Positions 2,849 through 43,210 of a DNA stretch of 51,567 bases are shown here, one piece after another (position 1 is the stretch's first letter; each line of letters opens with the position of its first letter). The notes under the pieces are model-generated. The model was not told the DNA's origin. It saw nothing but the letters and a program-made list of their open reading frames with translations, and did no database searches. The translations under genes and the position numbers were made by a program. The DNA is from Deltaproteobacteria bacterium (lineage in GTDB: Bacteria; Desulfobacterota; Syntrophia; Syntrophales; Smithellaceae). The stretch spans positions 1 through 51,567 of the forward strand of contig JANYAY010000021.1 of assembly GCA_025361065.1 (NCBI GenBank), read 5' to 3'.

Positions 2849-5800
2849 ATGAATAAAACAAGTTTGACCGCAAAAGCATTGATGGTGGTTTTTGCCTGGG
2901 GAATATTTCTCAACATGGCCTTTGCCGCAGAAAAGACCGCCCCCGCCGGTGGTAAGGGTCCGGAGATTTTCGTACAGACGGGACATTCCAGCAATGTCAG
3001 CTCCATCGACTTTTCGCCGGACGGAAAGTATCTTGCTTCGGGAAGCTCTGATAAAAACATCAAAATATGGGAGGTTCAAACAGGGCGCGAGATCAGAACT
3101 TTCGTCGCCAATGACATGGTTGATTCTGTCGTCTTCAGTCCCGACGGAAAATCCCTGCTTTCTTTAGAATCCAAAGGTGCTGCCAAATTATGGGATGTGA
3201 AGACCGGGAAAGAAATCCGGACACTTCGCCAAGGGGGCAAAGCACTCCTTACGGTCGCGGTTGCTTTTTCTCCCGACGGGGCACTCATTGCCGCAGCATG
3301 CGGTCCGGATGAAAAGGCTTCCGGTGATGATCTTTCTTTCAGAACCATTCAACTGTTTGATGTAAAAACAGGGCGCAGGATTAAGATCCTCACAGGGCAC
3401 ACCTCCAATATTCACACTATCGCCTTCTCGCCGGACGGAAAATACCTGGCATCGGGAAGCGAAACCGAGCTGCTGGGCAAGGCGAAAAAGGATAATACGG
3501 TCAGGCTCTGGAATGTCAAGTCCGGCAAGGAGGTACACCGCTTTGTCGGGCACACCAAAGGAGTCAGCAAGGTTGTTTTTTCTCCCGATGGACAGCTCGT
3601 AGCGTCCATCGGCGAGGACAGGAACATCTTTTTCTGGGACACAAAAAAAGGAGAAAAGGCAAGGTCGCTTGCCGGCTTCCCCTCCGGTGATCTTAAAACC
3701 CGCGGCACCATCGCCTTTTCTCCCGACGGCCGGCGTTTTGTCGCCGCCTCTTCCTTTCCTTCGGCCCTGATCCTCTGGGATGTTGCCACAGGTCAAGTGG
3801 AAGCAACCATGGATGATAACCATATTGACGACGCGGCAATTAGTTTTTCTCCTGACGGCCGGTACATCGCCGTCTGTGCAAGAGATAAGGTTTTGCTCTG
3901 GGATGCCGCCGCGCACCGGAAAATTCGGACATTCGGCGGCGATGTTAAAGGAATCAACAGCGCCTTTTTTTCCGCGGATCAGGAGAAAATCAAAATCGCC
4001 GGAAATGAGGAACTGACGGAATTCGGCCGTAATCTCGGGCATTTCATGGGCCGTAAGAAGATAGAGATATTCGACAACTGGAATAATGGGCGAGAGGATT
4101 GGGGTAACAGGCGTTTCTTTAAGTTAAGCGACAAGGGCTATCAAATTATCGACAGCCAAGCAGACCGCGCAATCATTAATACTTCCACAGATGATTATCC
4201 TACCGTCTATGACAGTCCCCGGCAGACATTCGTTTTTTCACCGGACGGCAGGTACGCTCTCATAACGGACAAAGAACACAAAGAGATAAAACTATTCGAT
4301 GTCAGGAATCACCACACCACCACCCTGGAGAACTTTCCCGGTTATTACAACATAACGGCCGGCGGCTATGCTGCATTTTCACCGAATGGGAGCCGCGTGG
4401 CCGCTGCAGCATACTCGGATGCCGACCAAAGGAACATTCTTGGCCTCTGGGATACATCCACGGGACGGCAAGCCATAAAAATACCGGCGGGTAAAAACAA
4501 AGAGAGTCTCGGTCATTTGGTCTTTTCCGCCGACGGGAAGCAGATTATCGTCGCCCGAGGCAGGAATAAAGGCATCATCGGACTCTGGGATTTAGCCTCC
4601 GGCAAGGAAATAAAGTCGTTTTCCGGTCATTCCAGTTTCATTACCGCTCTGGCCCTGTCCGGCGACGAAAAAATCATCTGCTCCGGCGACTGGGTCGGCG
4701 CAATCAAATTATGGGATCTGCGCACGGGCGGCCAGATAAAAACCTTGAAGGGACACACGGACGAGGTTAAATCCCTGGCATTTTCCCGGGACGGCGGAAA
4801 CGTTCTTTCCGCCAGCAAAGACGGGACCACCCGTTTATGGGACATTGCCGCTGGTAAAGAAATAGCTCAATTCGTGAGCTTTACCGACGGTGAATGGATA
4901 GTCATCACGCCGGAAGGTTATTTCAACGCTTCACCCGGTGGAGATAAACATTTGAATGTCAGAGTAGGCAACAACGTCTACGGCATTGATAACTACCGTG
5001 AATCTTTTTTCCGCCCCGACTTAGTAAAAGTTGCCCTTCAGGGAGGCTCGCTCCAATCACTCCGGAATATTGCCGATGTTAAACAGCCGCCGCAGGTCAG
5101 CATTGTGAATACACCACAGACAACGAATAAAGATGAAATTACCATAACTTTGAAGATCACGGATAATGGCGGTGGTATCGGCGACATAAAACTTTATCTT
5201 AATGGCACTTCCATTATGCTCGATGGCCGGGGCATTCAGATAAAACAGAACCCGAGCATAGGTACTTACAAGTCTTATGGGATCAAACTCTCCAATGGTT
5301 TAAACATCATCAAGGCTATTGCCTTTAATGCCGACAACACCATGCAGAGCAATGAAACCGTCCGGGAGATAACAGCCTCATTCCTGGCGACAGCCAGACC
5401 CAAAATGTACGCACTGATTATCGGGATCGACGATTATGACAATCCCAAACTCAAACTGATGTTCGCCGGAGCCGATGCGGAACTGTTTGCCGACACAATT
5501 AAAGAAACAACCGCCGGATTATTCAGTGAGGCAACGATAATAAAACTGACCGGAAAAGAAAAAACAGCCAAAGAAAACATTCTTCGCGAATTAAAATCAC
5601 TGCAAAGACTGCATCCCGATGACCTGTTTGTTTTTTACGCCGCCAGTCACGGCATCGTTGACAGCGGCGAATATTTTATGCTGACGTCCGACGTCGGTTC
5701 TCTGTCCTCGGCAAAACTCCGGGAAAAAGCAATCAGCCAAACTCAGCTAAAAGAACTGATCGCCAATGTCCCCACAACCAAAAAACTGATCGTGATTGAC

Positions 5801-6160
5801 ACATGCAGCGCGGGAGCTCTGGGAGATGCCATTCAAATGGCCATGATGACCAGAGGTGTCAGTGAAGAGACAGCCATGAAGATTTTAAGTTATGCTGTCG
5901 GCTCGATGGTCATATCCGCGGCAACATCCCAGCAGGAGGCGCTCGAAGGCTACAAGGGACATGGACTTTTTACTTATGTAATTACCGAAGGACTCAAGGG
6001 CAAGGCGGACAGCGATAAGGATGGTTTTATCAAAACTTTGGAGCTGGCCAATTATGTGGATGATGAAGTTCCCGCTCTAGCGGATAAAATATTCCACCGG
6101 AAGCAGTATCCGACTTGTTCACCCAACGGCATGGCCTTCCCCATAGGAAAGGTAAAGTGA
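2849..6160 (+). CDS. Exported WD40-propeller/caspase-like (C14) protein 1
   Basis: The 1103-residue product starts with a signal peptide (hydrophobic core about 9-25, cleavage near 26), so it acts outside the cytoplasm. About 13 WD40 blades follow (roughly 45-690; repeated SPDGKYLASGS...IKLWD pattern), enough for two seven-bladed propellers. Next come a linker domain with GEWIVITPEGYFNASP, an Ig-like segment (about 750-830) and a C-terminal caspase/peptidase C14 domain (about 850-1095). The catalytic pair is visible: His934 in YAASHG and Cys986 in IDTCSAG. The usual Gly before His is Ser. Residues 1054-1065 form an EF-hand-type calcium loop (D-x-D-x-D-G-x-I-x-x-x-E). Caspase-like cysteine peptidase activity is inferred from the family; the substrate is unknown. 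It opens a seven-gene cluster and is paralogous to the protein at 9537. Confidence 0.92.
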   Translation: MNKTSLTAKALMVVFAWGIFLNMAFAAEKTAPAGGKGPEIFVQTGHSSNVSSIDFSPDGKYLASGSSDKNIKIWEVQTGREIRTFVANDMVDSVVFSPDGKSLLSLESKGAAKLWDVKTGKEIRTLRQGGKALLTVAVAFSPDGALIAAACGPDEKASGDDLSFRTIQLFDVKTGRRIKILTGHTSNIHTIAFSPDGKYLASGSETELLGKAKKDNTVRLWNVKSGKEVHRFVGHTKGVSKVVFSPDGQLVASIGEDRNIFFWDTKKGEKARSLAGFPSGDLKTRGTIAFSPDGRRFVAASSFPSALILWDVATGQVEATMDDNHIDDAAISFSPDGRYIAVCARDKVLLWDAAAHRKIRTFGGDVKGINSAFFSADQEKIKIAGNEELTEFGRNLGHFMGRKKIEIFDNWNNGREDWGNRRFFKLSDKGYQIIDSQADRAIINTSTDDYPTVYDSPRQTFVFSPDGRYALITDKEHKEIKLFDVRNHHTTTLENFPGYYNITAGGYAAFSPNGSRVAAAAYSDADQRNILGLWDTSTGRQAIKIPAGKNKESLGHLVFSADGKQIIVARGRNKGIIGLWDLASGKEIKSFSGHSSFITALALSGDEKIICSGDWVGAIKLWDLRTGGQIKTLKGHTDEVKSLAFSRDGGNVLSASKDGTTRLWDIAAGKEIAQFVSFTDGEWIVITPEGYFNASPGGDKHLNVRVGNNVYGIDNYRESFFRPDLVKVALQGGSLQSLRNIADVKQPPQVSIVNTPQTTNKDEITITLKITDNGGGIGDIKLYLNGTSIMLDGRGIQIKQNPSIGTYKSYGIKLSNGLNIIKAIAFNADNTMQSNETVREITASFLATARPKMYALIIGIDDYDNPKLKLMFAGADAELFADTIKETTAGLFSEATIIKLTGKEKTAKENILRELKSLQRLHPDDLFVFYAASHGIVDSGEYFMLTSDVGSLSSAKLREKAISQTQLKELIANVPTTKKLIVIDTCSAGALGDAIQMAMMTRGVSEETAMKILSYAVGSMVISAATSQQEALEGYKGHGLFTYVITEGLKGKADSDKDGFIKTLELANYVDDEVPALADKIFHRKQYPTCSPNGMAFPIGKVK

Positions 6161-6167
6161 GCCGGAT

Positions 6168-6533
6168 ATGGCCTGGAAAAAATTTCAGCGGGAGCGTTCT
6201 GATTTTTTAATTAATACTGATAAGATGAAACGTAAAAGCTCTGTTGTCCGGAAGTCTGTTTATGCGGTTTTATTGCTTCTGGCGTTTTTCGCAATTTATA
6301 CTATTTATGATATGAGACAGGCGAAAAACATGGCGGCTGATGTTTGCAACAGCGCCGTAAAAGGAATTCCTCTGGAAGATTTCTTGTCAAAATTACCCAA
6401 GAATGATTATAAAATAATTAAGGGCACTGAGTATATAATGATCGTGCCGAAAAGAGGCATGGGGCGCAATTCCTGTACAGTTTCTCATAACGGACAGAAA
6501 ATTACAGGATCAAAAACAAGGTTTAATGATTAG
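6168..6533 (+). CDS. Small single-pass membrane protein in the caspase cluster
   Basis: This 121-residue protein of unknown family has a basic N-terminus, one membrane segment (about residues 31-47) and a roughly 70-residue outside domain containing two cysteines that could form a disulfide. The ATG at 6168 has no clear ribosome site. The ATG at 6225 (MKRKSS...) would give a normal signal-anchor and may be the true start. It lies 7 bp after the first WD40-caspase gene and 9 bp before the next gene, so it is almost certainly co-transcribed with both. Confidence 0.65.
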   Translation: MAWKKFQRERSDFLINTDKMKRKSSVVRKSVYAVLLLLAFFAIYTIYDMRQAKNMAADVCNSAVKGIPLEDFLSKLPKNDYKIIKGTEYIMIVPKRGMGRNSCTVSHNGQKITGSKTRFND

Positions 6534-6542
6534 GGAGAGGAC

Positions 6543-7163
6543 ATGAATAAAAACAGTTTTACAGGGAAGATATTAACCGGAGTTTTTGTAATTATTGCAG
6601 TGACAGCCTTTAGTCCTTCTGCTTCCAGGGGATTAGACAAAATGCCGGAATTTGTAAAATACGTATCTTCCGGCGATTACTTTAAATGCAATATTCCGGC
6701 TGACTGGAGCATAGATACCCCGGGGTTCGGTTTATCGGCGGAAGAGAAAAAAGTGTGTGGCGTCACCCTTTTTGGCCCGCCAAATGGCGGCCCGGTTGCT
6801 CCGTTACTCTCCGTTCACTATTACGCGCCGGGAAATCTTCTGCACAAAACAATGGAAGTCTTTATCAATAGACATTCCGGACCTGTTTTGGGTTTTGTAG
6901 CAGAGGGCAAGTCTTACGGCGACGTACGGGAAATAGAATTTGCCGGAAGAAAAGCGCAGACATTTGACAGAATAGATGTCCGTTTTATCGGCGAGCGGGC
7001 CTTACATCCGTTGAAAGTATCAATTTTTGAGAAATTTATCGTCATTCCCGGCATTAAAGATGATGGATTCTATGTTCTGAAGTTATCTGTTCCCGCCGCT
7101 GACAAAGATAAATTTACAGGAATTTTCGAAGAATCCGTAAAATCATTTATACCCCAAAAATAA
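6543..7163 (+). CDS. Secreted PsbP-like protein
   Basis: The 206-residue product has a signal peptide (about residues 9-28) and one domain of the PsbP/DUF1795-like kind: GDYFKCNIPADWS at the start, CGVTLFGPPNGG and LLSVHYYAPG in the middle, and a C-terminal FEESVKSFIP helix. It resembles the N-terminal half of the 391-residue protein at 12876, which follows the second WD40-caspase gene, so the pairing occurs twice. The biochemical role is unknown. GGGAGAGG just before the ATG supports the start. It is the third gene of the cluster and is followed 11 bp later by the TPR gene. Confidence 0.7.
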   Translation: MNKNSFTGKILTGVFVIIAVTAFSPSASRGLDKMPEFVKYVSSGDYFKCNIPADWSIDTPGFGLSAEEKKVCGVTLFGPPNGGPVAPLLSVHYYAPGNLLHKTMEVFINRHSGPVLGFVAEGKSYGDVREIEFAGRKAQTFDRIDVRFIGERALHPLKVSIFEKFIVIPGIKDDGFYVLKLSVPAADKDKFTGIFEESVKSFIPQK

Positions 7164-7174
7164 ACGGAGGAAAC

Positions 7175-8779
7175 ATGTTCAGATTGAAGAGCTTATTTTA
7201 TTCCCGGGAGATCTGCCTGGGAATTATATTCATACTATTCCTGAGTTCGACTTCGGCATTTGCCGGGTCCAAAACATTCATCAAGGAATATACTTATCAG
7301 GCCAGTGAAGACGACAGCCGAAACTCCAGCCGGGTCATTGCCCTGCGGGAAGTAAAAAGGCTCCTGCTGGAAGAGCTGGGAACCTACCTGGAAAGCGAGA
7401 CGGAGGTAAGGAACTTTCAGCTCACTCGCGACCAGATCACGATGCTGACGGCAGGAATCGTGCAGACGGAAATTGTTGCGGAAAAATGGGACGGCCGCCT
7501 GTACTGGCTCAAGTCAAAAATAATGGCAGATCCAGACAAAGTGGCTCAGTCGATCAACGACCTGCGCAAAGACCGTGATAAAACAAAAGAGCTGGAAGCG
7601 ATGAGACAAAAATCAGACGAACTGCTGCGCGAAGTGGAACGGCTGCGCAAGCAAATGGCTTCATCGAATAACGGCAATCGGGTGGCACAGCAGGCGGCTT
7701 ACGACAAGTCGATTAAGGAACTGTCCGCAGCGGAGTGGATTGAAAAGGGGCATGCTGCTTCCGGGCCGGATGATCATTTCCAGGGTGCCGTCGCTGCCTA
7801 CGGCAAAGCCATCGAACTGGACCCGACTAATATCAAAGCATATTATTTCCGGGCACGAATCAGCGAAAAAAACCAGGCGATGTCGGATTTCTACAAAATA
7901 CTGAGCATCGAGGCGGATGATTCAGAGGGGCATCTTATTCGCGCCTGGACATATAAAGAACTCAATCAGCGCGATCCCGCCCTACTGGAATTTGGCAAAG
8001 CGATTGAGAAGGCTCAAGGACAAAAAGAGAAGGCGGCCGCTTATTCCGACCGGGGCAGGTATTACACCCTGTTCCAAAAACGGGATTATGTCGAACCCTC
8101 TGCTAATGATATCCCCGGAGCGCTCGAGCTCTCGGCTAAGGACTTCACGAGCGCCATTGCGCTTGACCCCACTGACCCGTCCTATTTTCATAATCGGGCC
8201 AATTCCTATCTGGGGCTGGGCAAATATAATCTGGCTATTGATGATCTTAACGCGGGGATCAAGCTCGACCCCAAAAATGCTGGACTGTATTCCGCCCGGG
8301 GACAGACTTATCAAATGCTGCAAAAACCGGAGTTGGCAGTTGCCGATTTGAGCCGCGCCATTGAACTGGAGGGCCCGGACAATCTCTTTGTCACTCTTGA
8401 TTATATGCACAGAGCATTTTGCTATGAGAAACTTGGCAAATTCGATCTGGCTATCCGGGATTGGAGCATATTAATCAAGATGCAACCGAAGGATTCATCT
8501 AACTACGCGTCTCGGGCAGATTTGCAAAACGAGCTGGGAAAGTATGATCTTGCCATCAGGGACTATTCGACAGCCATAACAATTGATCCCAAAGCCGGTT
8601 CGTCGATTTATTATGGACGGGCACTGGCCTATGCTGCTAAAAAAAATATGCCAAGAGCCATTACCGATCTGAAAAAGGCAATACAACTTGATCCGTATTA
8701 CAAAGAAATGGCTAAGAAAGAATCACGCTTTGACGCCATCAGGAAACATCCTGATTTTATCGGGCTTATCGGAAAATGA
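7175..8779 (+). CDS. Exported TPR-repeat protein
   Basis: The 534-residue product has a signal peptide (about 12-30), an N-terminal alpha/beta domain (about 33-130), a coiled coil (about 130-165, rich in Glu, Arg and Lys) and then about eight tetratricopeptide repeats (about 190-525), recognisable by repeated AxxDxxxAIxLDP endings. TPR arrays bind other proteins, so it may be a scaffold for the exported caspase-like proteins. Its leader (MFRLKSLFYS...CLGI) is nearly the same as the leader of the second WD40-caspase, unlike that of the first. CGGAGG before the ATG supports the start. There is an 80-bp gap before the next gene. Confidence 0.85.
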   Translation: MFRLKSLFYSREICLGIIFILFLSSTSAFAGSKTFIKEYTYQASEDDSRNSSRVIALREVKRLLLEELGTYLESETEVRNFQLTRDQITMLTAGIVQTEIVAEKWDGRLYWLKSKIMADPDKVAQSINDLRKDRDKTKELEAMRQKSDELLREVERLRKQMASSNNGNRVAQQAAYDKSIKELSAAEWIEKGHAASGPDDHFQGAVAAYGKAIELDPTNIKAYYFRARISEKNQAMSDFYKILSIEADDSEGHLIRAWTYKELNQRDPALLEFGKAIEKAQGQKEKAAAYSDRGRYYTLFQKRDYVEPSANDIPGALELSAKDFTSAIALDPTDPSYFHNRANSYLGLGKYNLAIDDLNAGIKLDPKNAGLYSARGQTYQMLQKPELAVADLSRAIELEGPDNLFVTLDYMHRAFCYEKLGKFDLAIRDWSILIKMQPKDSSNYASRADLQNELGKYDLAIRDYSTAITIDPKAGSSIYYGRALAYAAKKNMPRAITDLKKAIQLDPYYKEMAKKESRFDAIRKHPDFIGLIGK

Positions 8780-8868
8780 TCGACTTGTATTTTGCTGTTC
8801 AGTTCTCGTCCTATACGCTGAAGAAAAGGACGTAAAGATTATTATGAATAAAAAGATGGGTGGTTAAG

Positions 8869-9342
8869 ATGAAAGCAGTAAATCCTTTTCCAAGAATAAT
8901 CCTGCTGATTATTTTTTGTATATGTTCTTATTCCTGCATAGGCCCGGTTCCGGTCGATGTGGTAATGATAGACAATGAATTGTTTTTTGTGCTGGAGGAC
9001 GAGCGTGAAATTACCTACCTGGAGGTAAGCACTTTAATAGATAAAAACAAAAGTGGCCCTGATAAATGGAGGTACGAGAATCTTCAGGTGATGTGGTTGC
9101 TTGGTTATGATGTGAAAACAGAGGTTAAGAAAAGAAAATATCTAAAGTTGCAACAAATAAGATATGGACAGAGGTTTGAAGAGTTTCAAATAACAAAAGG
9201 CCCAGTTGAACTGCAAAAAAACGTGGAATATTTTGTCAAAATCAACATGGGAAACAAATTCTCCATAGAAGAATTTATCATCACCAGCGACAACAAAGTA
9301 ATTATGCCCCGGCGAAAAGCTAAAGGGAAAAGTTCAGAATAG
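8869..9342 (+). CDS. Possible lipoprotein of unknown function
   Basis: This product of about 157 residues starts with a hydrophobic signal-like segment ending in CSYSCIGP. SYSC is a weak lipobox, so membrane anchoring through the cysteine is possible but unsure. The rest is basic and beta-rich (for example KRKYLKLQQIRYG) and matches no family I know. A GTG at 8860 in the same frame is an alternative start; I prefer the ATG at 8869. The gene sits between the TPR gene and the second WD40-caspase gene and is lower in G+C than its neighbours. Confidence 0.6.
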   Translation: MKAVNPFPRIILLIIFCICSYSCIGPVPVDVVMIDNELFFVLEDEREITYLEVSTLIDKNKSGPDKWRYENLQVMWLLGYDVKTEVKKRKYLKLQQIRYGQRFEEFQITKGPVELQKNVEYFVKINMGNKFSIEEFIITSDNKVIMPRRKAKGKSSE

Positions 9343-9443
9343 CGGCCAAAGAAATAAAGTAAGATATTGATTATTTAAAGTAAAAGCTTTGGACGAGATT
9401 TAAGCCGTTGTTCAAAAACAACCCGATCAAAAATTATAGCAAA

Positions 9444-9532
9444 CGGCATAAGGAGCCGTAACGAAATAGAGAAAAAGAACAGGTCTTGCCACCCGCATGG
9501 GTGGTTATTTCGTAACGTCTCCTAAGAGGAGA
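9444..9532 (+). promoter_or_regulatory. Layered hairpin leader with sequestered ribosome site
   Basis: The 194-bp gap before the second WD40-caspase gene carries four inverted repeats. Bases 9444-9447 pair with 9455-9458. Bases 9458-9468 pair with 9506-9516 (10 of 11 positions) and enclose a 6-bp GC-rich hairpin, 9489-9494/9499-9504. Finally 9518-9523 pairs with 9527-9532 around a 3-base loop; its right arm contains the Shine-Dalgarno AGGAG (9527-9531), five bases from the ATG. This suggests translational control. I could not match it to a known riboswitch. Confidence 0.55.
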
Positions 9533-9536
9533 AAAA

Positions 9537-12500
9537 ATGTTCAAATTTAAGAGTTTATTTTATACTTTGTCGGTCTGCCTGGGAATTGCTTTTCTGCCAT
9601 CCATAAGTTCATTTACCGCATCTGCTGCGGAAAAGCCTGCCCCGACAAGTAGTAAGCAGCGGCCAGAGATTTTTGTGCAGTTGGGGCATTCCAGTAACGT
9701 AATCGCTATGGCTATCAGTCCTGATGGTCAGCATGTCGTTTCCGGAAGTTCTGATTCAACCATTAAGCTCTGGAATATTCATTTAAAAAAGGAAGTCAGG
9801 ACAATAAAATTAGCAGGGGGTGTCAATTCCGTCCAATTTTCCAGGGATGGCAAACAGGTTTTAACAGGAGATTCTAATGGAGACTTGATTATCTGGGATT
9901 TTGATAATTGGAAAATTCTCAAAAAATTTAAACATTATTCTAAATATGTGGACAACTTTCAATTATCAGCCAGTGGCAAGTACGCCATATCTTCGGGTGC
10001 CAAACTGACTTATTGGGATATTCAAAGCAGCAGAAAAATATTTGACTACCAAGACCCGGCAGAGGCAAACAACAGCAACCAACAAGTTAACTCAATTTTG
10101 TCTAACAGTGGGAAATACATTGCCATTGGCTATTCTATCTTCAGGGAAAAAGGCGATGCTGGGCGAATTGACATTTTCGATGTTGCCACAAAAAGAATAA
10201 AACGAAAATTTCCGGTAATTAATGGATCGCTGACAGGAATAAAATGGTCGCCCAACGATCAGTACATTGCCGGAATTTACAGGGTTGGAGCGGAAGGCGG
10301 CCTATTGAATGTGCAGGACGCGCAAACTGGCAAAATTATCAAAACCATTACCTATGAAAAGGACTCTCCCTGGTCTGTGGATTTCTCTTTAGATGGAAAG
10401 TATTGCGCAATAGGAACATATGGTAAAGTGTTTTTGTATGATGCGGAAACCTGGCAGCAAATCATGGTATTAGAGGGTGGTGGGCCTGTTTCCTTCAGTT
10501 ACGACTCCAATATTTTATTTTATATGAACTACCGGGCTCATGCCTCCGGCAGGACTAGCGAAGCTATTCATATGAAGAATTTAGCTACGGGGGAGATCGA
10601 TTATATTGCACCCTTCATGAACGTTGAATTCTCAACATTTGCCGAGTATACGGACAACAATAAAATATTAGCACTGGGTGATAGGATTATGTCCTGGGAC
10701 ATCCATTCGGGCATGCCTGATTCATCCTTAAAGCTGGATATTGCCGCAGTGAGCAAAGATAAAAATTACGGGATTGAAAGTTATTCCGTAAGCGGCGTGT
10801 GGAAGGGGATAAGGTTATGGGATATCAAAAACAACAAACTCATTTATCACTGGCCAATGGAAGAATATGTCAGCAATTATACATTCAGTCCCGATGGAAG
10901 ATCTGTTATCGCTTCCCATTATGAACCTAACGAAATTTATGTATTTAATCTGCAAGACTTTTCCATCCGGAAATTCAAACATAAATGTGAAAGCTCAATT
11001 CTAAATTTAAGTTTTTTACCTGACGGCAAGAGAGTTATGTCTGTTGTAGAGTCGAGTCATAATAAAGATGAAGATCGAGCCAAGCAGACAATTTGGGATT
11101 TTGCTTCGGGAAATATCTTAAAAGAATTTACCTATTGGAGTTTAACCGGCGCAATTGATGTATCGGAAGATGGAAGATATATCTTGTTAGGCAGCAATTT
11201 TCCTAGCACTAAAGCTGCGGCGCTTGAATATGGTTTTGTCTTGCAGGATGTCGTCACCGGGAAGATATTAAAGACATTTAAAGGACATAGCGAACAAGTA
11301 TCAAGTCTTGCCATTTATGCTAAGAAAATAATCGCCTCTGCTGATGCCCAAGGTGAAATAAAAATCTGGGATTATGTATCCGGGAAATTGATCAAGACAT
11401 TAAAAGGAAATACAATATGGATAAAATCACTAAAGTTCTCCCCGGACGGCAAGAAACTGCTTTATACATCTGCTGATAAAACCATCCGCCTTTGGGACAT
11501 TGCCACAGGGAAAGAGCTTGCCAAGTTTATCAGTTTTACCGACGGGGAGTGGATTACCATCACTCCCGAAGGCTATTTCAATGCCTCGCCGAACGGCGCG
11601 AAATATATCAATGTGCGTGTCGGCAATCAGGTCTATTCCATCGATAATTTCTATGAAAAGTTTTTCAACCCCGTTTATGTCGCATCTGTATTACAGGGCA
11701 AAAAGGTGGAGGCTGTAGCTGATATCCGGAAGGGTATTCTTTCACCGCCGGATGTCCGGATTACCTCGCCCCCTCCCGGCAGTGAATTAAACCAGGACAC
11801 GCTCACCATCACGGTTGTCGCCAAAGACACGGGCGGCGGCATTGACGAAATAAGGCTTTATCACAACGGCAAGGCCATTGGCGATGATAAGAGGGGCATC
11901 CAGATCGTCTCCAAAGGTAGTGAAGCAATTCGGCAATATACCGTTTCGCTGGTGGACGGCCTCAACACCTTCCGGGCGGTAGGATTCAGCAAGGACAGGA
12001 CGGAATCCAATCCTGATGAGCTTGTCGTCAAACTTTCGGCGCCTTCCAAAGATGTCTCCCTGTATGTCTTTGCCGTCGGGATCAACAAGTATAAGAATCC
12101 CGCGTTGAATCTGAATTATGCCGAGCCGGATGCGCGGGGCATCGCCGACTTTTTCAAGCAGCAACGCAAGGGATTATTTAAAAATATTGAGATCAGGGAA
12201 ATCTACAATGAGCAGGCAACAAAGGAAACTATCGTCTCCAGATTAAGTCAGTTGCAGAACACCAACCCGCAGGACGCGGTATTGATCTATCTGGCGGGCC
12301 ATGGCGAGAATATAAATGACAAATGGTATTTTATCCCTCATGAGCTGACCTATCCGGAAAGAGAAGAGGATGTAAAGGCCAAAGGCATTTCCTCTGATGA
12401 ACTGTCGGGATATATCAAGAACATCAAGGCGCAAAAGATTTTGATGCTCATTGACGCCTGCAAATCCGGTGCAGTGCTGATTGCCTTCCGGGGCTTTGAA

Positions 12501-12797
12501 GACCGCAAGGCGCTTTCGCAGCTTTCCCGGTCAACAGGCGTGCATATCGTGGCAGCATCAACCAAAGACCAGTTCGCCGCGGAAGTAAAAGAACTTGGTC
12601 ACGGGGTATTCACCTATACACTGCTGGAAGGTCTCGGCGGCAAAGCGGCAGGTAAAGGCGAAGCTGTGACTGTGAGAAAGCTGATGGGCTATGTGGAAGA
12701 GAATCTGCCGGAAATCACCAAAAAGTATAAACAGGAAGCCCAATATCCCGTGGTGGATTCCCGCGGGATGGATTTCCCGCTGGTTACAGGCAAGTAA
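9537..12797 (+). CDS. Exported WD40-propeller/caspase-like (C14) protein 2
   Basis: The 1086-residue product has the same architecture as the protein at 2849: signal peptide (about 12-30), a WD40 region (about 48-670, several blades degenerate), the linker with GEWITITPEGYFNASP, an Ig-like segment with DTGGGIDEIRLYHNG, and a C-terminal caspase/C14 domain (about 835-1080). His922 in YLAGHGE and Cys975 in LIDACKSG are the expected catalytic pair. Unlike protein 1 it keeps the classical GHG motif but lacks the EF-hand-type loop (KAAGKGEAVT is in its place). A caspase-like peptidase role is inferred. The ATG is preceded by AGGAG inside a hairpin. Confidence 0.92.
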   Translation: MFKFKSLFYTLSVCLGIAFLPSISSFTASAAEKPAPTSSKQRPEIFVQLGHSSNVIAMAISPDGQHVVSGSSDSTIKLWNIHLKKEVRTIKLAGGVNSVQFSRDGKQVLTGDSNGDLIIWDFDNWKILKKFKHYSKYVDNFQLSASGKYAISSGAKLTYWDIQSSRKIFDYQDPAEANNSNQQVNSILSNSGKYIAIGYSIFREKGDAGRIDIFDVATKRIKRKFPVINGSLTGIKWSPNDQYIAGIYRVGAEGGLLNVQDAQTGKIIKTITYEKDSPWSVDFSLDGKYCAIGTYGKVFLYDAETWQQIMVLEGGGPVSFSYDSNILFYMNYRAHASGRTSEAIHMKNLATGEIDYIAPFMNVEFSTFAEYTDNNKILALGDRIMSWDIHSGMPDSSLKLDIAAVSKDKNYGIESYSVSGVWKGIRLWDIKNNKLIYHWPMEEYVSNYTFSPDGRSVIASHYEPNEIYVFNLQDFSIRKFKHKCESSILNLSFLPDGKRVMSVVESSHNKDEDRAKQTIWDFASGNILKEFTYWSLTGAIDVSEDGRYILLGSNFPSTKAAALEYGFVLQDVVTGKILKTFKGHSEQVSSLAIYAKKIIASADAQGEIKIWDYVSGKLIKTLKGNTIWIKSLKFSPDGKKLLYTSADKTIRLWDIATGKELAKFISFTDGEWITITPEGYFNASPNGAKYINVRVGNQVYSIDNFYEKFFNPVYVASVLQGKKVEAVADIRKGILSPPDVRITSPPPGSELNQDTLTITVVAKDTGGGIDEIRLYHNGKAIGDDKRGIQIVSKGSEAIRQYTVSLVDGLNTFRAVGFSKDRTESNPDELVVKLSAPSKDVSLYVFAVGINKYKNPALNLNYAEPDARGIADFFKQQRKGLFKNIEIREIYNEQATKETIVSRLSQLQNTNPQDAVLIYLAGHGENINDKWYFIPHELTYPEREEDVKAKGISSDELSGYIKNIKAQKILMLIDACKSGAVLIAFRGFEDRKALSQLSRSTGVHIVAASTKDQFAAEVKELGHGVFTYTLLEGLGGKAAGKGEAVTVRKLMGYVEENLPEITKKYKQEAQYPVVDSRGMDFPLVTGK

Positions 12798-12875
12798 ACT
12801 GAAGCCGACAGGTGTTTCCCATCGGACGGTTAAAATAAGACAAATTAAGTATCAGACTACCAGTGGAGAATTCCG

Positions 12876-14051
12876 ATGTTAAAAAATAATATAATTGCAC
12901 CGCTTGTAAAATCAGCACTGGCTATCATGCTGCTCACTGTTTTTATGACGCCCCGGGAACTTCTTGCAGCAGAACCGGCGCTAAAATCATGGACTTCACA
13001 AGGTGGGATTTTCTCCGTATCTGTGCCACAGAATTGGCAGCGCAGTGAAGACTTCTACTTCCACGAAGGCGGAGAATACGGCCTGAAATTATGGGCGCCG
13101 GGCGCCAGAGATCTGTCTTATGTTCTCATCGAGTTTGTCTGCCAGGATGCCGAATATAAGACAGCGGAAAAATTCATTTATGAAAAGCTGCACCCGCATA
13201 TGTCTCCAAAGAATGAAGAACGAAGCTCGGTTGCCGATGCGCTGATTTCCGGCAAACAGGCAAAAACATTTACCGTAAAAACCGGGAGATTCCCTCTCCC
13301 CGGTCAGGACACGGCGGAAGTTAAAATTATGAGGAAGTATGTGGTTTTTCCCTTTTCTTCCGGTTTCGGCTTTGCGCTTTATGAAGCGCCCCTGGATCTG
13401 GCCATTAAGTATGAATCAATATTTGACAAGATGGTCCTAAGCTTTAAACCACTGCAACAAAATGTCCGTTCGCAAGATGATGACGGGATTGAAGATGAAG
13501 AATACACCGTGTTCACCGACTTTCTGCAAATCGAAAACAAACAGATAACTGCTGCCAAAGAAGCTACTCTTTCCCCGGAAGAAAAAAATTACCGGCGGCT
13601 TTTAAAAAACTTTGATCTCCCTGCACTGGGCGATGCCTTTATCGTCATCAGCCAGACAACTGCCAACAGCAGAAAATTGGATAAGAAGCTTACTGGTGCT
13701 CTGGGTATTACCAATGAGGCAATAATTGCCGATTATGCAATAAAAAACCAAAAAACATATAAGCTGAAAGATAAATTTTTAGTGCAGAAAAACATCGCCA
13801 TTCTAACGGAAGAAAAGGCAAGGAATATGTTCAGTTCGCGAGGCGGCTTCGCGGAATTCCACAAGAAATATCCTTTTGCTTCCGGTATTATTTATTTCTC
13901 CCGGATTGGTTTTAATAAAGAAAGAACTCAAGCGGTTTTTTATGTTGCCAATCCCGTGGATTCCGAAATGGGCAGGGGCTATATAGTTCTAATGGAAAAG
14001 AATAAAAGCGGCTGGATATTAGTAAATTTTATTAATCTCTGGATCTCTTGA
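12876..14051 (+). CDS. Secreted PsbP-like protein with an extra C-terminal domain
   Basis: The 391-residue product has a signal peptide (cleavage near residue 31), an N-terminal PsbP-like domain (about 38-190; GGIFSVSVPQNWQ, then YGLKLWAPG) paralogous to the protein at 6543, an acidic linker (about 195-210, DDDGIEDEEY), and a C-terminal domain (about 235-391). The last domain has the pattern YPFASGIIYFSRIGFN...TQAVFYVANP...GYIVLMEK...W, a motif I have seen in uncharacterised secreted proteins, where it often carries cysteines that are missing here. Function unknown. It lies 78 bp after the second WD40-caspase gene and closes the cluster. Confidence 0.7.
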   Translation: MLKNNIIAPLVKSALAIMLLTVFMTPRELLAAEPALKSWTSQGGIFSVSVPQNWQRSEDFYFHEGGEYGLKLWAPGARDLSYVLIEFVCQDAEYKTAEKFIYEKLHPHMSPKNEERSSVADALISGKQAKTFTVKTGRFPLPGQDTAEVKIMRKYVVFPFSSGFGFALYEAPLDLAIKYESIFDKMVLSFKPLQQNVRSQDDDGIEDEEYTVFTDFLQIENKQITAAKEATLSPEEKNYRRLLKNFDLPALGDAFIVISQTTANSRKLDKKLTGALGITNEAIIADYAIKNQKTYKLKDKFLVQKNIAILTEEKARNMFSSRGGFAEFHKKYPFASGIIYFSRIGFNKERTQAVFYVANPVDSEMGRGYIVLMEKNKSGWILVNFINLWIS

Positions 14052-29121: not shown

Positions 29122-31479
29122 ATGAGGAATGTTGCAGCTGTTGTTTTGGTTATGGCCGCACTTATTGTCGGATGTTATTCGGCGAAAGTTTTGGCGCCGG
29201 TGGCTTTCCAAATCCCGACGAGAAATATAGATTACCTCAAGGAAGTAAAACCAATACTGGACAGGCGCTGTGCCGTTTGCCATTCCTGTTACAATTCGCC
29301 CTGTCAGCTGAAGCTCGACTCTTTTGAGGGGTTGGATCGTGGCGCCACAAAAAAGGCCGTTTACAATGGCTCGCGACTGACGTCCATGGACCCAACACGT
29401 CTCTTCACAGACGCTCAATCGACCGGGGAGTGGCGTCGGAAAGAGTTTTTCAGCGTTACCGACAGTAAGGTTTCCGGCGGGTCCAATGACTCTGTCATGA
29501 TCGAAATAATTTCCCATAAGATGAATAATCCGAAAAGTATCGGGGAGTATAAGCCGGAAGCCGATGACCTGACCTGTTCGGAGAACAAGGAAGAGCTGGG
29601 AGGGTATCTGGAAAAACACCCGAATCGAGGTATGCCTTTCGGTTTTCCTCCGTTAAAACAAGATGAATTCGATATTGTTGCAGGCTGGCTGGGCCAGGGT
29701 GCCAGGGGACCTGATGCCGCCGAGCAGAAGATGCTAACCTCACCCAAAGCAAGCGACGCCGTCGCCATAAAACAGTGGGAGATTTTTTTTAACCTCGATG
29801 ATGCCAAACACGCCATGACGGCACGCTATATTTATGAACATCTTTTCCTGGCTCATTTAAAATTCGGCACACCAACTCTTGAGTATTACGAACTCGTCCG
29901 CTCGAAGACCGCACCCGGCAAGCCCATTGATTTGATTGCCACCGTGCGTCCTTATGACGACCCCGGTGTTGAGCGCGTCTATTATCGTTTCAGAAAGATT
30001 CATTCCACAATCGTCCATAAAACTCATATGGTATTTGAACTCGATGATGCCAAGCTGCGGCGATTCGAGGAACTTTTTATCCAGCCGCAATGGCTACAGA
30101 CCCCGCACCAGGAAGGATATGAAACGAAACTGAGCGCCAATCCTTTTGTAGCATTTGAACAGATCCCCCCCCGATCACGCTATCAGGTCTTATTGGACAA
30201 CGCACATTATATCATCATGACCTTTATCCACGGTCCGGTCTGTAAGGGTCAGATTGCCCTTAATGTGATCAACGATCATTTCTGGATCATGTTTATGGAT
30301 CCCGATCATGATCTTGCCACTTTGTATCCGGCCTTCCTGAAGCTGCAAAGCAAAAGCCTGCGCATGCCCATTGAAATGGGCAGCGACACGCGAATCTTTA
30401 ATGCACTGAAAGATGAACATAGAAAAGCAGCCGCGGAGTTTTATAAAGACCGGCAGGACTATTACATGTCCCACCACTACACCGGTCTTGGCTATGAGTC
30501 CGTCTGGAAGGGCAATAATGCCTCTGACGCTCCGCTGCTTACCGTCTATCGCCATTTCGACAGCGCCTCCGTGTATAAGGGGGCGTGGGGAAACCTGCCC
30601 AAAACAATGTGGATTATTGACTATCCCTTGTTGGAGCGTATCTATTACGCGCTCGTTGCCGGATTTGATGTATATGGCAATGCCGGCCACCAGTTGGCTC
30701 TCCGGTACTATATGGATCAACTGCGTGTTGAAGGCGAGAGCTACTTTCTGGAATTAATGCCTCAGTCAAAAAGAAATGCGATCATGCAGTCGTGGTATCA
30801 GGGGGTTGATCTGGAGAAGATTCATTACTATCCTTCGGCGATGCCGGCGAAAATTTCCTTCCGCAGTAATGACCCGAAGCGCGAGTTCATAGAATATGTC
30901 GTGAACAAGCATATTTTGCCTCAAACAAAAATTGCTTTTGATCCCGTGAACTATGATCAGACAGGAACCGGCTATACGCCGCTGCCTGAGAAATTTAAAA
31001 CCAACGATGACTACCTGAAGGCTTTTCGTTCTATTACCAAACCGGGCATGCCCTTTTTCTCCTTGGCCAAAGACTATAATGCCAACGTTATTTACACGAG
31101 AATACGCCTGAAAAACGGAAAAGATCTGGCGTTCTCCATCGTGATCAATCAATGGCACAACAATGTTACCCATCTGTTCAGTGAAAAAGGCGAGCTGGAT
31201 ATATCCAAGAACAGTGCTGATTTTCTTTGGGGCCTCATCGGATCATACCCCAACTACTTCTTTGATGTCCAGGAAGGGGACCTGCCGGACTTTTTCGATA
31301 TCCTCGCCCATTATGAGAAAGGCCCGAGAGACGAAGCGAGGCTGGCCAAATACGGCATTAACAGAGCGGAGGACCGCCTCTGGGATGCGTACGACTGGTT
31401 TCAAAAACGCTTTTATGAAGACGAACCGGTGCATGCGGGACTGTTCGATTTGAACCGCTACTACTACCTGGCTCGCTAA
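29122..31479 (+). CDS. cti: Fatty acid cis/trans isomerase
   Basis: Cti converts cis-unsaturated fatty acids of membrane phospholipids into trans forms without saturation, a fast response to solvents or heat that rigidifies the membrane. The 785-residue length is that of the family. A hydrophobic export signal ends in IVGC (Cys18), a good lipobox, so the protein may be lipid-anchored in the periplasm. The single cytochrome c heme site is C50-A-V-C53-H54, in the segment ILDRRCAVCHSC, followed by more cysteines at 56 and 61. The remaining domain matches the Cti family in several blocks such as SRYQVLLDNAHYIIMTFIHGP. GGGGGAG lies before the ATG. Confidence 0.9.
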   Translation: MRNVAAVVLVMAALIVGCYSAKVLAPVAFQIPTRNIDYLKEVKPILDRRCAVCHSCYNSPCQLKLDSFEGLDRGATKKAVYNGSRLTSMDPTRLFTDAQSTGEWRRKEFFSVTDSKVSGGSNDSVMIEIISHKMNNPKSIGEYKPEADDLTCSENKEELGGYLEKHPNRGMPFGFPPLKQDEFDIVAGWLGQGARGPDAAEQKMLTSPKASDAVAIKQWEIFFNLDDAKHAMTARYIYEHLFLAHLKFGTPTLEYYELVRSKTAPGKPIDLIATVRPYDDPGVERVYYRFRKIHSTIVHKTHMVFELDDAKLRRFEELFIQPQWLQTPHQEGYETKLSANPFVAFEQIPPRSRYQVLLDNAHYIIMTFIHGPVCKGQIALNVINDHFWIMFMDPDHDLATLYPAFLKLQSKSLRMPIEMGSDTRIFNALKDEHRKAAAEFYKDRQDYYMSHHYTGLGYESVWKGNNASDAPLLTVYRHFDSASVYKGAWGNLPKTMWIIDYPLLERIYYALVAGFDVYGNAGHQLALRYYMDQLRVEGESYFLELMPQSKRNAIMQSWYQGVDLEKIHYYPSAMPAKISFRSNDPKREFIEYVVNKHILPQTKIAFDPVNYDQTGTGYTPLPEKFKTNDDYLKAFRSITKPGMPFFSLAKDYNANVIYTRIRLKNGKDLAFSIVINQWHNNVTHLFSEKGELDISKNSADFLWGLIGSYPNYFFDVQEGDLPDFFDILAHYEKGPRDEARLAKYGINRAEDRLWDAYDWFQKRFYEDEPVHAGLFDLNRYYYLAR

Positions 31480-40963: not shown

Positions 40964-43210
40964 TTATAGTCCGAATTTTCCTAAACCGGTTAGCGATAAT
41001 TTCAGGATAAATCTGGTATCGGATACGACCTCGGAATCCAATCCCACCGAATCGGACCGGGTGATTTCCAGTCCCACCGCCCAACATTGCTTATGATAGA
41101 TTAAACCAATAGTGTTTTCAATATTTCGGGAATTAAACTGATCCCGCCGCGAAATAAACGTACCATCAATTTTATCCGTAATAACTGCCTTTAAATTAAA
41201 ATCGATTTCTTCAATGGCGTTTAAAGTGTATCGATAACTCAATGTTGCATTATCACCGCGCCAATCGCTGATATTCAAGTCATAATTCGCTACTGTCCAG
41301 CCATTATAAACACTGTATTGATTCCGGGCGGCAAATGATAAATATTTGTACGGTCGGAAATCCACTTCCACGCCCATATCGGATAAGTAACGTCTTTCGG
41401 CCGCGCCTTGCATTTCCTTTTTGGCCTCGTTGATATCATAAGTCTGAAAAAGTTTTACACGCAGGAACTCCAGATAACTATAGGCGCCTTTAGCGTCTCT
41501 TTGTTTGGCGGTAAATGTGTTAGTCACGCCCCAGGCAACTGCATTTTGCTCCATTATGGCGTTTGTTGTGGCCGCCACAACAGGCGTGACGGCAGGCGTG
41601 ACAACCGGCGCAAAGTCAGGAAGGCTGCTTTGCGGGACAGAAGGAATATAAGAATAAGTTATCTCCGGTTTAATTTCATGGCGAATTTTATCCCAGCTTT
41701 GCACATTGACGTCAAAAACTCGGGACACCTGGCTGCTCAGAGCCAGAGAAAAATTATAAATGCTTCTGGTTCCGCTTTTATTATCTCCCTGGGCTTGCTC
41801 ATCATCCCGGTTCCAGAATGTTTCTCTTAAGGCAACCTGCGGGATTACTTTTGCATAACGGGAAATGTTGAAGGGTACGGAAAAAGTCGGACTAACATCG
41901 ATAAAATGTCCTTTTTGCCCGGCGCCACGGTAAAAATAATCATAAACTGCCGTGAACTCATAATACAGAGGTGATTTTAACAGTGGTTGTTTAATTCCTG
42001 TAAAAGTGATTTCCGGATATCTTTGCAAAGTGCCGTCATTGTTCGTCAGAGAAAGATTGTCTGTTGAACTGACTAATGCTGTTAAATTGTAATTTGACCA
42101 TCCTTTGTACAGACGTGCGGTTGATTCTAAAGAACCCAGGGATTCATCGCCGTAAAAAGGAACTTTTTTAAACGGGTCCAGCTCTGTTTGAGCATAGTGG
42201 TCAGTATAATAGTTGTGGGCTGAAAAATCCCGGAAATACCAGTTGTCGGACACTCTGCGCAAATCAGTACGGAGATAGGACTGGGAATCAAAATTTGTCT
42301 GATGATTCAGATAATACGACCAGCGTTTATTTAAATCCTGCCGATTAGGATTAATACCAGCGGTACTTCCGATTGTATCCGTAACATGCTTGTTGTCGTC
42401 CAGATAATCTCCATAGAAAGTACCGAAAGATTTTTCTCCGGCATAATAGCGTAATTCCACACCTTCTTTTAATCCTCTTTTTTCAATATAACGCGAATAA
42501 AGCGTCGCATCCATCTGAGGTGAAATAACCCAGAAATAGGGGACTTCTATATCAACACCATCCTTGTCTTGAGAATAAGAAAGATAGGGGAAAAGAAATC
42601 CTGATTGTCGTTTGGTCTTGGCGGGAAAAGGCAGGAATGGTGAATAAAGGACCGGTATATTATTGGTAACTAACCGGGCATCTTTCATTAATCCGTAACC
42701 TTCAATGGTCATTTTCATTTCACTGCCGGCAATTTCCCAATCGGGCTTGTCGCCGTCACACGTCGTTGCCACCGGTTGTGTTATTCTGTAGGTCAGTTCC
42801 CCGGTCTTTGCGATTTCGTCTCCCCTGATATAAAAATGATTCTTCGCATAAAACGCCCGGCCTTTATAGGCAATGCCGGTTTTATTTTCCACATTAAAAA
42901 CTATCTTATCGCCGGCAAGAGTATCTTCGCCCATTTTCAGCAAAGCATTGCCGCGGGCGGTAGCTATATTGTTCTTCTTGTCAAACTCCACATCATCCGC
43001 ATTTAAAACACCTCCGTCGTAGGTTATCACTACGGATCCCTGAGCATGATAAATATCGCTGGTATTATTGTAATCCATGGTGTCGGCATCAATATTGACG
43101 GGACCTTTACTGTTTTTCGTCTCATCTGCTGATAATAGAGGACAAGAGAAAAAGACGATTATTAAAGACAGCAAGGCAACCATTGAGTTATTTCTTCGCC
43201 GATTAACCAA
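40964..43210 (-). CDS. lptD: LPS-assembly outer-membrane protein LptD
   Basis: LptD inserts lipopolysaccharide into the outer membrane. The 748-residue protein has a signal peptide, an N-terminal LptA-like OstA domain (about 37-130: NIDADTMDYNN, ARGNALLKMGEDTLAGDKIVF), and a long C-terminal barrel with the landmarks NIPVLYSPFLPFPAKTKRQSGFLFPYLSYS. The start is a TTG at 43210 with AAGGGG upstream; the first in-frame ATG is at 43183 and would clip the signal peptide. It follows folC by 18 bp, in line with a folC-lptD operon. It shows that this organism has an LPS-type outer membrane. Confidence 0.93.
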   Translation of the reverse strand: MVNRRRNNSMVALLSLIIVFFSCPLLSADETKNSKGPVNIDADTMDYNNTSDIYHAQGSVVITYDGGVLNADDVEFDKKNNIATARGNALLKMGEDTLAGDKIVFNVENKTGIAYKGRAFYAKNHFYIRGDEIAKTGELTYRITQPVATTCDGDKPDWEIAGSEMKMTIEGYGLMKDARLVTNNIPVLYSPFLPFPAKTKRQSGFLFPYLSYSQDKDGVDIEVPYFWVISPQMDATLYSRYIEKRGLKEGVELRYYAGEKSFGTFYGDYLDDNKHVTDTIGSTAGINPNRQDLNKRWSYYLNHQTNFDSQSYLRTDLRRVSDNWYFRDFSAHNYYTDHYAQTELDPFKKVPFYGDESLGSLESTARLYKGWSNYNLTALVSSTDNLSLTNNDGTLQRYPEITFTGIKQPLLKSPLYYEFTAVYDYFYRGAGQKGHFIDVSPTFSVPFNISRYAKVIPQVALRETFWNRDDEQAQGDNKSGTRSIYNFSLALSSQVSRVFDVNVQSWDKIRHEIKPEITYSYIPSVPQSSLPDFAPVVTPAVTPVVAATTNAIMEQNAVAWGVTNTFTAKQRDAKGAYSYLEFLRVKLFQTYDINEAKKEMQGAAERRYLSDMGVEVDFRPYKYLSFAARNQYSVYNGWTVANYDLNISDWRGDNATLSYRYTLNAIEEIDFNLKAVITDKIDGTFISRRDQFNSRNIENTIGLIYHKQCWAVGLEITRSDSVGLDSEVVSDTRFILKLSLTGLGKFGL

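Follow-up and report, generated by a model that had tools for sequence, protein, structure and literature searches.

Most proposals place the bacterial relatives of caspases in the cytoplasm or at its membrane, and the function of these proteins is largely open. We analysed a gene cluster for such proteins in a DNA stretch of 51,567 nucleotides (hereafter the window) from a Deltaproteobacteria bacterium of the family Smithellaceae (assembly GCA_025361065.1, contig JANYAY010000021.1, positions 1 to 51,567). The cluster spans 2849-14051 and has seven open reading frames (ORFs), all on the + strand and at the positions given in a first-pass annotation made from the sequence alone. Two of them encode proteins of about 1100 residues, CASP1 and CASP2, in which WD40 propellers are joined to a C-terminal caspase domain. 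Our comparisons with relatives reject one history for the propeller (sensor) and caspase (effector) halves. This modularity is the stronger finding and was absent from the first-pass annotation, which had dealt with the predicted export of the cluster.

The gene cluster around two WD40-caspases

Pfam scanning found WD40 repeats in both CASP1 and CASP2 (E 1.7e-67 and 7.5e-37) and a Peptidase_C14 domain (PF00656) at 62.4 and 59.0 bits, above the cut-off of 21.4. The His/Cys pair is intact in both proteins, as had been noted before. They are true paralogues, with 31% identity over the full length (E 5e-141). The catalytic dyad is also kept in the relatives: among 50 aligned effectors the His was present in 50 and the Cys in 49, the exception being a Tyr. 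The source genome, a 3.95-Mb draft that is 97% complete, contains 10 Peptidase_C14 matches, six of which are long WD40-caspases of 997-1401 amino acids (aa), arranged as two pairs and two singles.

The TPR protein was confirmed by the Pfam scan, and the possible lipoprotein (P0005) is a probable one (Table 1). The two proteins that had been called PsbP-like are related to each other (E 5e-7), but P0003 stays under the PF01789 cut-off, and for P0007 the Pfam scan gave nothing at E<=0.1. Membership of the PsbP family was therefore rejected, and "PsbP-like" is used below as a description. The small membrane protein (P0002) does carry a membrane helix, but it has to be read as an internally deleted relative of P274, a 274-aa multi-helix membrane protein, of which it keeps the first ~15 and the last 98 residues. 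Neither P0002 nor P0005 gave any Pfam match at E<=0.1. A Cas5f match of P0002 (E 1.1e-4) and a Csx9 match of P274 (below cut-off) fall on the helix-rich part and were taken as chance. In the source genome, P274 occurs only as the deleted 121-aa form (6168-6533) and as pieces in the second caspase cluster (G000:C47:36263-36795, within L011; G labels denote genomes and L labels loci), and a homology search found no intact copy there.

Signal peptides had been proposed for most of the proteins. A crude rule flagged 7/7 cluster proteins, compared with 94/473 other ORFs in 52 loci (each of at least 150 aa and with at most one membrane helix) and 46/473 shuffled N-termini. The flag on P0002 is better read as a membrane helix than as a signal peptide. 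Signal-like N-termini were also found in 6/6 of the long WD40-caspases of the source genome. These data predict that the cluster proteins are exported. The window encodes LptD at 40964-43210. A cell with two membranes is therefore expected, in which exported proteins would reach the periplasm or the outer membrane.

The intergenic gaps along the cluster are 7, 9, 11, 80, 194 and 78 bases, in order. The window contains neither a tRNA gene nor an Rfam match that reaches the gathering score, and an RNA element or a tRNA-associated island was rejected for this reason.

Table 1. Genes of the cluster and the two halves of each WD40-caspase
Feature	Position	Strand	Remarks
CASP1, exported (predicted) WD40-caspase, 1103 aa	2849..6160	+	WD40, Peptidase_C14, His934 and Cys986; domain order: signal-like N-terminus, ~650 residues of WD40 propellers, DGEWIVITPEGYF linker, Ig-like domain, caspase
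CASP1 propeller (sensor) half	2924..4885	+	GC 0.519
CASP1 effector half (linker, Ig-like domain, caspase), class C2	4886..6157	+	GC 0.469
P0002, 121-aa single-helix membrane protein	6168..6533	+	Internally deleted relative of P274
P0003, 206-aa exported (predicted) protein, weakly PsbP-like	6543..7163	+	PF01789 15.1 bits, cut-off 23.5
TPR protein, exported (predicted), 534 aa	7175..8779	+	N-terminal domain also in DUF4384 proteins adjoining caspases
P0005, 160-aa probable lipoprotein	8860..9342	+	Cys of Y-S-C-I-G-P-V kept in three orthologues near caspases
CASP2, exported (predicted) WD40-caspase, 1086 aa	9537..12797	+	Two predicted propellers, linker, Ig-like domain, caspase, His922 and Cys975
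CASP2 propeller (sensor) half	9612..11540	+	GC 0.405
CASP2 effector half, class C0	11541..12794	+	GC 0.502; predicted caspase fold
P0007, 391-aa exported (predicted) protein	12876..14051	+	N-terminal similarity to 206-aa P0003

Propeller and effector halves have different histories

The proteins were split at the motif DGEWIxITPEGYY/F, which lies at the junction of the last blade and the linker, into an N-terminal propeller half and a C-terminal effector half. The motif, in a narrow and then a looser form, was also the selection pattern, so its presence in the set is not a result; all 33 effectors in an alignment made from the relatives' search retain the motif's Trp and Gly. The set consisted of ORFs over 500-600 aa that match the motif and comprised 55 of the 91 ORFs above 600 aa with an effector match. 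Among the 36 ORFs outside it, the one of L149 was added later and 35 miss the pattern, often by one residue. The pair and tree counts exclude five loci that duplicate others, and column identities of the class alignments were calculated with the named copies. Effector classes C0 to C3 were drawn by identity of at least 55%.

The effector of CASP2 is 71-86% identical to those of 20 other proteins from several phyla, whereas their propellers are 24-37% identical to that of CASP2. These values are close to the background propeller identity of 32.5% (standard deviation, sd, 5.0) in 258 pairs with effector identity below 45%. In the C0 alignment, column identity stayed at 0.2-0.3 for most of the propeller region; the first and the last blade had 0.34-0.50, and from residue 661 onwards the value was 0.79. 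We then counted all 1485 pairs of the 55 proteins, which are not independent of each other. When the effectors were at least 85% identical (28 pairs), the propellers were below 40% in 18, at 40-50% in 2 and at 50% or more in 8; with effectors at 75-85% (102 pairs), the corresponding numbers were 78, 8 and 16. A wrong blade register was rejected as the cause of the low propeller identity: for the best local match of at least 80 aa (pairs without one counted as 0), the 84 discordant pairs (effectors at 75% or more, propellers below 40%) had a median of 28%, which was the same as that of 825 controls.

The reverse situation was also observed. Similar propellers sit on different effectors in pairs with propeller/effector identities of 90%/41%, 67%/37%, 65%/42% and 62%/49%. 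The GC contents of the two halves of CASP2 (Table 1) make the largest step among 50 proteins; steps above 0.04 were found in 15 of these, with a mean of -0.001 over the set, and give only side support. When the 155 genomes of the order were searched for the CASP2 propeller at E<=1e-60, with at most 8 candidates scored per genome, none of the 154 genomes besides its own gave a match; weaker relatives would have been missed.

A search with the CASP1 propeller in the 155 genomes detected two relatives with 66-67% identity, in two other genomes of the family, G007 and G081, which belong to one genus. They are the 90%/41% pair (loci L051 and L149, G081:C142). The G081 effector is C2-type (63% to CASP1), and the G007 effector belongs to C0 (82% to CASP2). 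At the DNA level, an 89% match extends over 2062 bases and ends 125 bases beyond the start of the linker motif. Counted in blocks of 20 codons, identity was mostly 88-100% up to residue 640, apart from a drop to 68-77% in residues 461-520. It was 68-75% between residues 640 and 700 and 32-63% beyond. In this pair, identity falls between the last blade and the linker. The two proteins are probably at the same locus, because over 1019 bases the upstream caspase genes of G007 and G081 share 81% identity. In G081, the tandem caspases are separated by a 122-aa gene (L149 7590-7958) that is missing in G007, and the downstream genes differ; we take the start of this gene to resemble DUF559-type endonucleases. 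The caspase at L149 2139-3842 adjoins the swapped WD40-caspase, and its C-terminal part gave sub-threshold matches to models such as GldK and EgtB.

Trees were built for 50 of the 55 proteins, leaving out four truncated ORFs and one fragment. In the effector tree, C0 to C3 (20, 10, 8 and 6 rows) each formed one clade with support of 98-100 in the Shimodaira-Hasegawa-like approximate likelihood ratio test (SH-aLRT), which is partly by construction given how the classes were drawn. In the propeller tree the same classes need 9, 4, 6 and 4 changes, of which 4, 2, 4 and 3 are forced by well-supported branches. For the six effector groups taken together, the propeller tree requires 15 changes, compared with a minimum of 5 and a shuffled mean of 25.2. 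The approximately unbiased (AU) test rejected C2 as one clade on the propellers (p-AU 1.7e-43), and it rejected CASP1 and L051_9799 as one clade on the effectors (p-AU 0.0002, a test chosen after the pair was seen). One history for both halves is rejected by these tests. The propellers still cluster partly by effector class, which indicates that swapping is occasional and not free. The two halves are neither locked nor independent.

Occurrence of the effectors across phyla

Effectors of class C0 were found at 70-86% identity in records titled Nitrospirae/Thermodesulfovibrionia, Candidatus Tenebribacter, Cloacimonadota, Delongbacteria, Calditrichaceae and UBP2, and also in records titled Desulfobacteraceae, Smithellaceae and Deltaproteobacteria. 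Their identity does not follow kinship: three Nitrospirota effectors are 85-86% and a fourth is 82% identical to that of CASP2, compared with 76-82% for those of the same family or genus. As a control, TrmD of the Nitrospirae scaffold of L101 is 54% identical to TrmD of the source genome, compared with 82% for the effectors. This result fits a horizontal spread of effector halves between distant bacteria, and one control gene leaves unusual constraint possible.

Two side observations concern CASP2-type effectors. L096 (Thermodesulfovibrionia) and L113 (Deltaproteobacteria) have seemingly the same two genes, by start and length, upstream of CASP2-type caspases, which may reflect recent transfer or misbinning of one of them. 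In L067 (G032:C417), an 84%-identical effector fragment at 185-2268 adjoins a 574-aa gene, presumably for a transposase.

Sensor heads and predicted structures

Searching by phmmer with the domains of two relatives detected PDZ in 13 of the 55 heads, the query proteins included, and 4 of these matches had E above 1e-5. PDZ heads occur in classes C0, C1, C2 and C3, where the class of the truncated L072_1 and L057_16811 was taken from the earlier pair comparison. Thioredoxin was detected in 4 of the 55 heads, namely in the PDZ-thioredoxin-propeller heads of four C1 proteins. Since PDZ and thioredoxin domains are common in envelope proteins (HtrA and thioredoxin-like families), these heads support export and sensing. 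The propeller of L097 (2263-5994) contains two stretches of 42 identical residues, apparently from a recent blade duplication.

The AlphaFold model of CASP2 (25 sequences, pLDDT 79.7, pTM 0.77) has two propellers followed by the linker, an Ig-like domain and the caspase, with domain names assigned from secondary structure and structural matches. In the models, these parts fill the chain from the signal to the C-terminus. For the propeller part, structural similarity was found to double propellers such as 2ymu and Apaf-1 (Foldseek/VIA). The model of the CASP2 effector (33 sequences, pLDDT 84.9, pTM 0.87) matched the MALT1 paracaspase (Z 21.2, 2.8 A, 198 residues), caspase-7 (Z 19.5) and the Geobacter caspase 3bij (Z 18.9); metacaspase 4 and Geobacter GSU0716 were also matched, as was a fibronectin-III-like module at the Ig-like part. 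A caspase fold is thus predicted for the CASP2 effector. When the effector half was searched against PDB sequences, a glycoside hydrolase was the single, weak match.

A recurrent neighbourhood of variable content

The neighbourhood was searched in 59 genomes including the source genome, 28 of which have caspase matches. Homologues of the lipoprotein were found in 4 genomes, always adjoining a WD40-caspase or within a few kb of one. P274 homologues were found in 8, and in six of these (G000, G001, G003, G024, G028 and G034) P274 adjoins a WD40-caspase or is 1-2 genes off. No caspase was seen around P274 in G010; the match in G041 is weak, and no caspase was on that contig among the matches listed. 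Other neighbours that recur are an ankyrin-repeat protein whose N-terminus is signal-like, a membrane protein of 181 aa and exported (predicted) DUF4384 proteins.

The neighbours of CASP2-effector relatives were inspected in 18 of 49 loci, several of which belong to other phyla. In 4 of the 18 loci, all with Nitrospirae titles, PsbP-like proteins are encoded at most ~3 kb away from a caspase. DUF4384 proteins gave 6 strong matches and one weak match, and P274 and the lipoprotein were each found in one locus. Over 35 genomes, DUF4384 (PF14326) had 28 matches, with at least 8 within 7.5 kb of a caspase and at least 7 within 3 kb.

In G003, from the same genus as the source genome, the flanking genes of the syntenic site are retained: DUF188 (92%), w1418 (77%), the PsbP-like gene (73%, an orthologue of P0007) and PAP2 (81%). 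The site itself has a different long caspase with a PDZ-thioredoxin head, fewer partners, and a 519-aa ORF with weak caspase similarity on the opposite strand. The contig of G002 (same genus) ends early at the corresponding flank. These results indicate that the neighbourhood is real and recurrent but variable in content, and that the seven genes are not a fixed unit. A search for the same gene set in related genomes had been suggested with the first-pass annotation. The partners do recur near WD40-caspases elsewhere, including in another phylum, but not as a fixed set. As a separate observation, L058 and L075 (G024:C8 and C42, both contig starts) have seemingly the same caspase end followed by different genes, and may be near-identical paralogues or strain variation.

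Comparison with known systems

Exported bacterial caspases had been regarded as something different in the first-pass annotation, but they have precedents. Among 671 prokaryotic caspase relatives, PMC3501461 counts WD40 in 73, as the commonest extra domain, and transmembrane helices in 104, many of them perhaps signal peptides; it also describes membrane and extracellular classes and 20 multi-caspase operons, Deltaproteobacteria included. Cyanobacterial metacaspases with 14 WD40 repeats (PMC2853523), TAT-like signals in YS pseudo-orthocaspases (PMC6426788), and cyanobacterial orthocaspases, some proposed to have an extracellular WD40 part and a cytoplasmic caspase, as well as prokaryotic WD40 proteins (PMC7475262, PMC5587647), have been described too. 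The cluster proteins share with the prokaryotic WD40 metacaspases and orthocaspases (PMC3501461, PMC2853523) the His/Cys caspase fused to WD40 repeats; signal-like N-terminal helices and multi-caspase operons had been noted there before. Compared with the cited parts of these papers, the cluster differs in the order of signal, propellers, linker, Ig-like domain and C-terminal caspase, in the constant effector classes with exchanged sensors, and in the recurrent exported (predicted) partners.

The EACC1-caspase system (System 4 of Kaur et al. 2020, PMC7159879) also combines a constant caspase with very variable fused domains. Its membrane partner is small and has a single helix, and the system was proposed to act in conflicts near the membrane. 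Its caspase is described as N-terminal with variable C-terminal domains, whereas the caspase is C-terminal here and the protein is predicted to be exported. Membership was rejected because NF047832 scored 68.1 and 77.6 bits for CASP1 and CASP2, below the cut-off of 140, and because the domain order is opposite. As for an EACC1 gene 5' of the caspase, the Pfam search of P0002 and P0005 returned no match under any name, in a library for which the presence of an EACC1 model was not confirmed. The PADLOC "caspase" model matched CASP1 and CASP2 (E 4.4e-9 and 1.2e-13) over the caspase domain only, ~165 of 453 model positions. Amplification and turnover of propellers, often from single blades, has been linked to innate immunity (PMC9218822), and conflict systems with diversified sensors include some that are predicted to be periplasmic or secreted (PMC10907252). 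No account of propeller exchange between exported bacterial caspases was found among the papers listed in a search of mostly open-access literature.

In Apaf-1, two WD40 propellers act as a ligand sensor upstream of caspase activation. The CASP2 model likewise has a double propeller and aligns with Apaf-1 over ~550 residues, but the overall root-mean-square deviation of 13 A indicates that the two propellers are not set alike. Another difference is that no NTPase was seen and that the caspase is in the same chain: the best 25 of 66 and 25 of 56 Pfam matches and the NCBIfam matches contained no STAND/NB-ARC NTPase. DegS and DegP (HtrA) are exported sensor-proteases, and PDZ domains of HtrA type occur in relatives of the cluster caspases. 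DegS and DegP are serine proteases, whereas the cluster encodes predicted cysteine proteases of the caspase fold.

Proposed function and alternatives

We consider it somewhat probable that the cluster encodes exported sensor-proteases with exchangeable sensors, which serve to sense envelope damage or conflict. The signal peptide would lead each WD40-caspase across the inner membrane. The N-terminal head, usually one or two WD40 propellers and in relatives also PDZ or thioredoxin, would bind an envelope ligand, and the binding would be relayed through the conserved linker and the Ig-like domain to the C-terminal His/Cys caspase. The activated caspase could then cleave itself or a neighbour. The TPR, lipoprotein, P274-like and PsbP-like proteins are candidate adaptors, anchors or substrates. 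Sensor halves would be exchanged among few effector classes by recombination between the last blade and the linker, and effector halves would spread between distant bacteria, giving an arsenal of swappable sensors on constant proteases.

The patchiness, the variability of the locus, the swapping and the cross-phylum spread favour a use in conflict or self-recognition, and the PDZ and thioredoxin heads favour damage sensing; both uses may be true. Tentatively, the cluster might belong to an envelope immunity or self-recognition of an undescribed kind, in which exported caspases carry heads recombined from a cross-phylum pool onto constant effectors, as a periplasmic counterpart of NLRs (NOD-like receptors) and the apoptosome. 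If sensors of exported caspases are indeed exchangeable, natural swap experiments exist, with one head on two effectors and one effector on many heads. One could then test directly if the trigger depends on the propeller and the output on the caspase, and the theme of a constant effector with a variable sensor would extend from other conflict systems to the cell envelope. Exported caspases and caspase pairs as such are already described (PMC3501461).

Several observations weigh against the proposal of exported sensor-proteases. Ligand sensing, activation, cleavage, the substrates and the use in envelope damage or conflict are all steps that we infer, and the export prediction rests on a crude rule and homology. 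CASP1 and CASP2 have no PDZ or thioredoxin match by phmmer, and only propellers were found in their heads. No phage, toxin or secretion gene linking the cluster to conflict was seen. Some partners are also found away from caspases: the N-terminal domain of the TPR protein occurs in 27 of the 59 genomes, and among five such loci that were inspected, L073, L077, L087 and L088 are without a caspase and L081 has one ~8 kb off. The TPR protein is therefore not a dedicated caspase partner. P0003 was matched in 3 and P0007 in 5 of the 59 genomes, partly by one domain only, and in G007 the PsbP-like copies adjoin no caspase that we saw. DUF4384 is the most frequent partner elsewhere, but the cluster lacks it, and it was rejected as a partner there. 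In G001 (same genus), no WD40-caspase lies at the corresponding flank. Between the lipoprotein gene and CASP2, a terminator-like site (9488-9505) may split the transcript; a single transcript is plausible for the first part of the cluster, and the site makes it unsure for all seven genes. Neither terminator-like sites (17, shuffled 15.2, sd 4.3) nor promoter-like sites (26, shuffled 19.1, sd 4.3) are clearly enriched. As for swapping and spread, the proteins missed by the motif pattern add 45 pairs with effectors at 75% or more, whose propellers are below 40% in 19 and at 50% or more in 21; in their 70 added pairs with effectors at 60-75%, propellers are below 40% in 54. The classes do cluster on the propeller tree, with counts as low in 2, 0, 31 and 7 of 500 shuffles (C0 to C3), and this tree was flagged for long branches and odd composition. 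The cross-phylum records are metagenome-assembled genomes, some of them short contigs that may be misbinned.

Envelope quality control is an alternative that we regard as rather unlikely: like DegS or DegP, the heads would sense misfolded or mislocalised envelope proteins, and the caspase would remove them or release a signal. The HtrA-type PDZ and thioredoxin domains in the heads of relatives, the partners that look exported or membrane-bound, and the diderm nature of the window genome, as seen from LptD, all agree with it. Housekeeping functions, however, are usually conserved, whereas these caspases are patchy (28/59 genomes), variable at one locus, swapped and shared across phyla, and CASP1 and CASP2 themselves lack the PDZ and thioredoxin domains. 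It is less probable still, and in our opinion improbable, that the proteins are scaffolds whose caspase serves mainly for self-processing without a signalling role. WD40 is annotated as a protein-interaction domain in the literature cited above, and no caspase substrate is known, but the dyad is kept in 49/50 effectors while the propellers diverge, which speaks for selected catalysis.

The discordance between the halves could also arise without swapping, if both halves followed one tree and the propellers simply changed much faster than the effectors. In agreement with this, new propellers often originate by amplification of single blades (PMC9218822), the blades of one relative share 42 identical residues, and the propellers retain part of the effector signal. 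Faster evolution alone was nevertheless rejected by the reverse chimeras and by both AU tests, and the G007/G081 DNA match stops near the linker. We consider this explanation very improbable as a whole, and faster evolution may still account for part of the propeller divergence, with exchange of sensors between effector classes as the preferred reading.

Elsewhere in the window, positions 29122-31479 encode a fatty acid cis/trans isomerase (PF06934, E 7.7e-252), which is an envelope-stress enzyme in other bacteria.

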